Origin: Methanospirillum stamsii
Lineage (GTDB): Archaea > Halobacteriota > Methanomicrobia > Methanomicrobiales > Methanospirillaceae
Direction: 5' to 3'
Length of the DNA: 64,000 bases
NCBI RefSeq assembly: GCF_003173335.1
Contig: NZ_QGMZ01000011.1
Coordinates: 62,001-126,000 of the forward strand
The notes beneath the pieces are model-generated. The model was not told the DNA's origin. It was given only the letters and a program-made list of their open reading frames with translations, and did not search any database. Below, piece after piece: positions 1,827 through 1,989 of the stretch. Position numbers and translations under genes: made by a program. Position 1 is the stretch's first letter; each line of letters starts with the position of its first letter.

Positions 1827-1900
1827 TCGTTTCCATAGGTCCCCGGGTGATACGATGAGGAATCATAGAGTGATCCATGGGACAACCCGGAAACGGTACA
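1827..1900 (+). ncRNA. Candidate H/ACA guide RNA hairpin 1
   Basis: The flanks 1827-1834 (TCGTTTCC) and 1889-1896 (GGAAACGG) form a lower stem, and ACA follows at 1898-1900. An upper stem pairs 1839-1843 with 1879-1883. Between the stems is an open pocket (1835-1838 and 1884-1888) whose top lies 14 bases before the ACA, as in archaeal pseudouridylation guides. The apical part has GG-TGA at 1846-1850 facing TGAT-CC at 1871-1876, which looks like a kink-turn, capped by ATGA-GGAA-TCAT. The region has no convincing ORF. The rRNA target was not identified. Confidence 0.5.
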
Positions 1901-1912
1901 AATTTATGGCAC

Positions 1913-1989
1913 CGCCTGGCTGAGGGCGTTTAATAGGTGAAGAACGGCAAAAGCCACTTGTGATCCATATTTGTTAGTGCCAGGCGACA
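1913..1989 (+). ncRNA. Candidate H/ACA guide RNA hairpin 2
   Basis: A perfect 8-pair lower stem joins 1913-1920 (CGCCTGGC) and 1979-1986 (GCCAGGCG), and ACA follows directly at 1987-1989, the hallmark of archaeal H/ACA RNAs. An AT-rich upper stem (about 1932-1937 with 1965-1971) leaves an internal pocket whose top is 15 bases from the ACA. The apical half repeats the pattern of hairpin 1: GGTGA at 1936-1940 facing GTGATCCAT at 1960-1968, with a GGC-AAAA-GCC cap. The two hairpins are 12 bases apart and may belong to one two-hairpin transcript. Confidence 0.58.

Follow-up and report, generated by a model that had tools for sequence, protein, structure and literature searches.

A conserved two-hairpin RNA behind pyrC in Methanomicrobiales, a probable box H/ACA guide of the HgcG/Pab40 family

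What occupies the gap behind pyrC in Methanospirillum stamsii, an archaeon with a 3.74-Mb genome, is the question raised by this locus. In the window, by which we mean the whole stretch of 64,000 nucleotides that was analysed, the dihydroorotase-like pyrC gene (473-1810, called on its amidohydrolase match) is followed by an open frame (2119-2454) that matches DUF167, and a first-pass annotation had placed two adjacent H/ACA-guide-like hairpins at 1827-1989, 3' of the former and 5' of the latter. Homologs of this region are found by blastn throughout the Methanomicrobiales. As predicted from an alignment of 50 homologs (A1), positions 1816-1989 of the forward strand are a conserved two-hairpin archaeal box H/ACA guide RNA that keeps the same place after pyrC across the order. 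The hairpins are upheld by their conservation and compensatory changes in the 50 homologs, and they are better read as one two-hairpin guide gene; the proposed end stands, whereas the start moves to 1816, where a conserved GUGCC/GGCAC helix lies. A covariance model built from the 50 aligned sequences (R1) covers 1816-1989 with 162 bits, the window itself being among its training sequences.

A conserved two-hairpin RNA behind pyrC

The outer helix joins GUGCC (1816-1820) to GGCAC (1908-1912) and encloses both hairpin 1 and its ACA box. It is conserved in the Methanomicrobiales, with 96% of its cells paired and little covariation. Hairpin 1 has a lower stem of UCGUUUCC (1827-1834) and GGAAACGG (1889-1896), in which seven of the eight pairs show compensatory changes, and a pocket formed by two putative guide regions, AUAGGUC (1835-1841) on the 5' side and the nearly invariant ACAACCC (1882-1888) on the 3' side. 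Above it, the 5' strand of the upper stem and K-turn, CCCCGGGUGA (1841-1850), faces UGAUCC of the K-turn and AUGGG of the upper stem (1871-1881), and one U separates the lower stem from the ACA box (1898-1900). In hairpin 2, a perfect 8-pair lower stem, CGCCUGGC (1913-1920) with GCCAGGCG (1979-1986), is directly followed by ACA (1987-1989), as the first-pass annotation had it, and six of nine pairs carry compensatory changes. Its candidate guides are GAGGG (1922-1926), the complement of 23S CCCUC (E. coli 1920-1924), and GUUA (1973-1976), the complement of 23S UAAC (E. coli 1911-1914). GGG of the former is conserved in much of the phylum, the whole being broken up by a CG insertion in Methanospirillum, and in the latter GUU is invariant and A nearly so. 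The pocket and upper stem with the K-turn strand GGUGA (1927-1940; compensatory changes in four of the five pairs of helix 6) are closed by UGAUCC and the 3' strand of the upper stem (1961-1972).

Both ACA boxes are invariant (50/50 each), as are UAGGUCCCC in the 5' guide region of hairpin 1 and the UGA of its K-turn, and GGGACAACCC is all but invariant. The kink-turn-like GGTGA/TGATCC pattern, noted earlier at the apex of each hairpin, is indeed present in both as GGUGA/UGAUCC, its G-A residues being invariant or nearly so among the 50 homologs. A pocket top lying 14-15 bases from ACA had also been claimed. This is right for hairpin 2 (14 nt), whereas hairpin 1 gives 16 nt with an upper stem of ten layers and 14 nt with twelve, that is, if two lower pairs are counted. 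Published productive H/ACA folds have a ten-layer upper stem and 14-15 nt from the pocket top to ACA (PMC4652768), a standard to which hairpin 1, with ten layers and 16 nt, is an imperfect fit. At one locus (L222:294-682, genome G037), a spacer of about 200 bases separates hairpins 1 and 2, which are adjacent in a genus mate (L221), suggesting that the hairpins are independent units.

It might be argued that the hairpins have come together by chance in this intergenic region, which as a whole is indeed unremarkable in folding energy (z of -0.9 for 1800-2010; taken singly, the hairpins have z of -2.3 and -1.4). Since these energies are only modestly better than those of shuffles, the case rests on comparative evidence. 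Here, 94.2% of the cells are paired, against 85.8% in shuffled alignments; 23 of the 39 pairs have changed on both sides (13.7 in shuffles), as have 178 cells (52 in shuffles), and none of 500 shuffles came up to the observed values. Sliding the structure along the alignment left no more than 43% of the cells paired. There is hardly any variation in the upper stem of hairpin 1; the remaining hairpin helices, namely both lower stems and the upper stem of hairpin 2, all covary. These compensatory changes refute the chance reading, the probability of which we consider negligible in view also of the order-wide conservation and of model matches across the phylum, and they bear out the original remark that a design shared by otherwise different hairpins is poorly explained by chance.

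A second alternative is that the RNA acts in cis, as a leader or riboswitch that controls the downstream DUF167 gene or the pyrC transcript. Its position is in keeping with this: it comes straight after pyrC, and the DUF167 start follows 20-30 nt downstream in most genomes. At the loci examined within the order a pyrC-length open frame always precedes the RNA, and at some of them this frame extends into it, so the guide RNA may be cut out of a longer precursor. However, the RNA is kept at several loci with no DUF167 frame in the stretch examined (L003, L005-L007 and L044), and at one Archaeoglobus locus the nearest listed ORFs resemble neither pyrC nor DUF167. Cis-regulation of DUF167 is therefore rejected on synteny. 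A cis-acting element would, moreover, leave the ACA boxes, the K-turns and the rRNA complementarity unexplained, and it is at odds with a guide sequence that tracks 23S rRNA, as described below. We thus regard a cis-acting role as very unlikely, and favour a trans-acting guide RNA.

Three details of the setting may be recorded. At six loci (L024, L028, L030, L032, L041 and L049), the pyrC frame enters hairpin 1 and its stop codon is the UAG of the conserved UAGGUCCCC. A TATA-like TTATAATC is found at 1786-1793, about 26 bases upstream of 1816, and its alignment in relatives is not evident. The DUF167 frame at 2119-2454 is without ATG, GTG or TTG upstream of its conserved part, whereas the frames of relatives begin with ATG; the frame may use a rare start codon, or the sequence may contain an error.

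Relation to HgcG/Pab40 and to haloarchaeal guides

To which known RNA does this one correspond? Rfam searches of the window and of 1780-2030 gave no relevant match, and RF00064 (HgcG/Pab40) gave none in the window up to an E-value of 10. The search with archaeal H/ACA models that had been proposed for this region was thus negative for the window itself, yet a connection emerges through other genomes. R1 matches 127 of the 247 genomes of the phylum; many other families reach E-values of about 1e-10 to 1e-15, and the matches in haloarchaea-like genomes are weak (0.001-0.7). In the Archaeoglobi, R1 finds three named loci with E-values of about 1e-15, and RF00064 overlaps these matches over its model positions 1-276. 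At one locus (L123), the only such case among them, the RF00064 match of 88.9 bits exceeds the gathering score of 77. Further lineages match both models and bridge them, R1 spanning the part equivalent to the second and third HgcG/Pab40 hairpins. Since both models fall on the same loci, the window RNA is homologous to Pab40 minus its first hairpin, as in haloarchaea. From these model matches, we take it to be the two-hairpin Methanomicrobiales counterpart of HgcG/Pab40, which is also known as Pf7 in P. furiosus and Afu4 in A. fulgidus. At one further locus (L225:178-309, reverse strand), a sub-threshold match to HgcE (Pab105) overlaps the HgcG match, which hints at a distant relatedness of H/ACA families. 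The papers searched contain no description of this guide RNA from Methanomicrobiales.

The known members of the family share much with the window RNA and differ from it in instructive ways. HgcG/Pab40 has three hairpins, the last two of which correspond to the window RNA, whereas the latter has two, with the pyrC coding sequence directly upstream. The last hairpin, Pab40.3, has been assigned to U1915 (PMC4652768), and the U1915 equivalent is likewise the proposed target of hairpin 2; the middle hairpin has a different listed target in Pyrococcus, L1932. In haloarchaea, the targets given for the hairpins HP1 and HP2 (Hvo1/Hvo2) are the equivalents of U2586 and of U1915/U1917, respectively (PMC2584109; PMC4652768), the same two sites as proposed here. 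A long spacer lies between the haloarchaeal hairpins, while those of the window are adjacent, and the haloarchaeal RNA has lost the AUAGGU/ACAACC complementarity to U2555 that the window RNA has. The U2555 site does occur as a guide target elsewhere: hairpin 1 of HgcF/Pab35, a different RNA family, is listed for P. abyssi L2672. By the offset that equates U2669 with E. coli 2552 (PMC2584109), this position is U2555, the site proposed here as a second target for hairpin 1.

Guide/target complementarity and co-change in 23S rRNA

The pockets match 23S sites known or proposed as pseudouridines in other archaea, target sequences having been examined in the species' own and 24 other 23S genes. Its own 23S rRNA reads GGGUAAC-U-A-U-GACCCUCUU around U1886 and pairs there with GUUA and GAGGG of hairpin 2; around U2548 it reads GAGCUGGGUU-U-A-GACCG and pairs with AACCC and GGUC of hairpin 1, AACCC being 14 nt from ACA. 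A second fit of hairpin 1 brings ACAACC and AUAGGU together with GGUUGU-U-C-GCCUAU at U2555 (own U2517), and in this fit both guide strands directly adjoin the ten-layer upper stem. These sites cannot be picked out by complementarity alone. With assumed guide borders, a first rRNA scan gave too much noise for targets to be named; for the window RNA, other rRNA sites score equally well or higher, and the best of all is one in 16S rRNA. In a blind scan of hairpin 1 with family means, U2586 came first, followed by U2555, both only slightly above 16S sites, and U1915 was absent from the top eight sites for hairpin 2 in blind rRNA scans. The assignment comes from homology and from co-change of guide and target. 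On this footing, the most likely target of hairpin 2 is U1915 and/or U1917 of 23S rRNA (E. coli numbering), and that of hairpin 1 is U2586; in a second register, hairpin 1 probably also guides U2555.

Position 2586 lies near the peptidyl transferase centre. In a pattern search it was C in 4 of the 247 genomes. These are the four sampled members of a single genus of the order (g29), which belongs to the family of Methanocalculus and is probably Methanocorpusculum. In this genus (L220, L228, L262 and L263; 23S loci L243-L245) the base is thus C, as against the U of all other 23S genes that were examined. The guides of the four genomes have AACAC, AACAC, AACAU or AACAG in place of AACCC, and GGCC in place of GGUC; a sister genus (g22) retains both AACCC and GGUC. 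Hairpin 1 persists in the C2586 genus together with the U2555 guide bases ACAAC and UAGG, at a spacing of 15 nt to ACA for this guide, and the change to GGCC turns a U-G wobble with the U2555 target into C-G. This coincidence of a lost U2586 with a broken U2586 guide and a retained U2555 guide supports the assignment of both sites. At the U2555 site itself, one family (f12) has GGGGAGU on the A-loop side of its 23S rRNA instead of GGUUGU, and both of its guides read ACUACC instead of ACAACC, giving one compensatory change (guide A to U, target U to A); one guide/target mismatch at this site is uncompensated. In haloarchaea, GUC and AACCC are kept while the internal partner GAC has become GCG or GAG, and 5' GUC is also kept in lineages beyond the haloarchaea in which GAC has changed. 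Since GUC stays where its partner does not, it must be retained for a reason other than the internal helix. These cases amount to few independent events, and the C2586 case counts as just one of them. Altered forms of AACCC also occur in a few other lineages, at least one of which (G211) retains U2586.

It is possible that hairpin 1 guides U2586 only, like its haloarchaeal counterpart, and that the match to U2555 is a coincidence. HP1 is indeed assigned to the U2586 equivalent alone, and the 14 nt between AACCC and ACA obey the spacing rule. However, the UAG of the pocket is conserved though pairing with U2586 does not need it, the C2586 genus maintains hairpin 1 and its U2555 guide, 15 nt from ACA, with no U2586 to modify, and the matched guide and target change in f12 would be unexplained. 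We consider this single-target reading a live possibility, short of an even chance. Another scenario, about which we are evenly divided, is that hairpin 1 is one pocket used in two registers, for U2555 and U2586, and that lineages later kept one of the targets: U2586 in the haloarchaea, and U2555 in one methanogen genus once C2586 had appeared in its 23S rRNA.

A predicted guide for three ribosomal sites

Taken together, the evidence makes it very probable that the window RNA is a box H/ACA guide acting in trans, which represents HgcG/Pab40/Pf7/Afu4 in Methanomicrobiales in a two-hairpin form. Once transcribed, each of its hairpins would carry one set of Cbf5, Nop10, Gar1 and L7Ae, with L7Ae sitting on the K-turn and Cbf5 on the ACA and pocket, and would present one uridine of 23S rRNA for isomerisation. 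Genes for Cbf5, Nop10 and L7Ae are found above cut-off in the same genome, and Gar1 has a match below the Pfam cut-off. In hairpin 2, GUUA would bind UAAC and GAGGG(U) would bind (A)CCCUC, around U1915/U1917 in helix 69. In hairpin 1, AACCC would bind GGGUU and GGUC would bind GACC, around U2586 in the peptidyl transferase centre; with the register shifted by two bases, ACAACC would bind GGUUGU and AUAGGU would bind GCCUAU, around U2555 in the A-loop.

This RNA fills an annotation gap, as an H/ACA guide that Rfam misses in Methanomicrobiales, and it leads us to expect pseudouridines at three functional positions in the ribosome of the methanogen. The C2586 genus offers a rare case in which a natural change of the base predicted to be modified coincides with the decay of only the matching guide bases.
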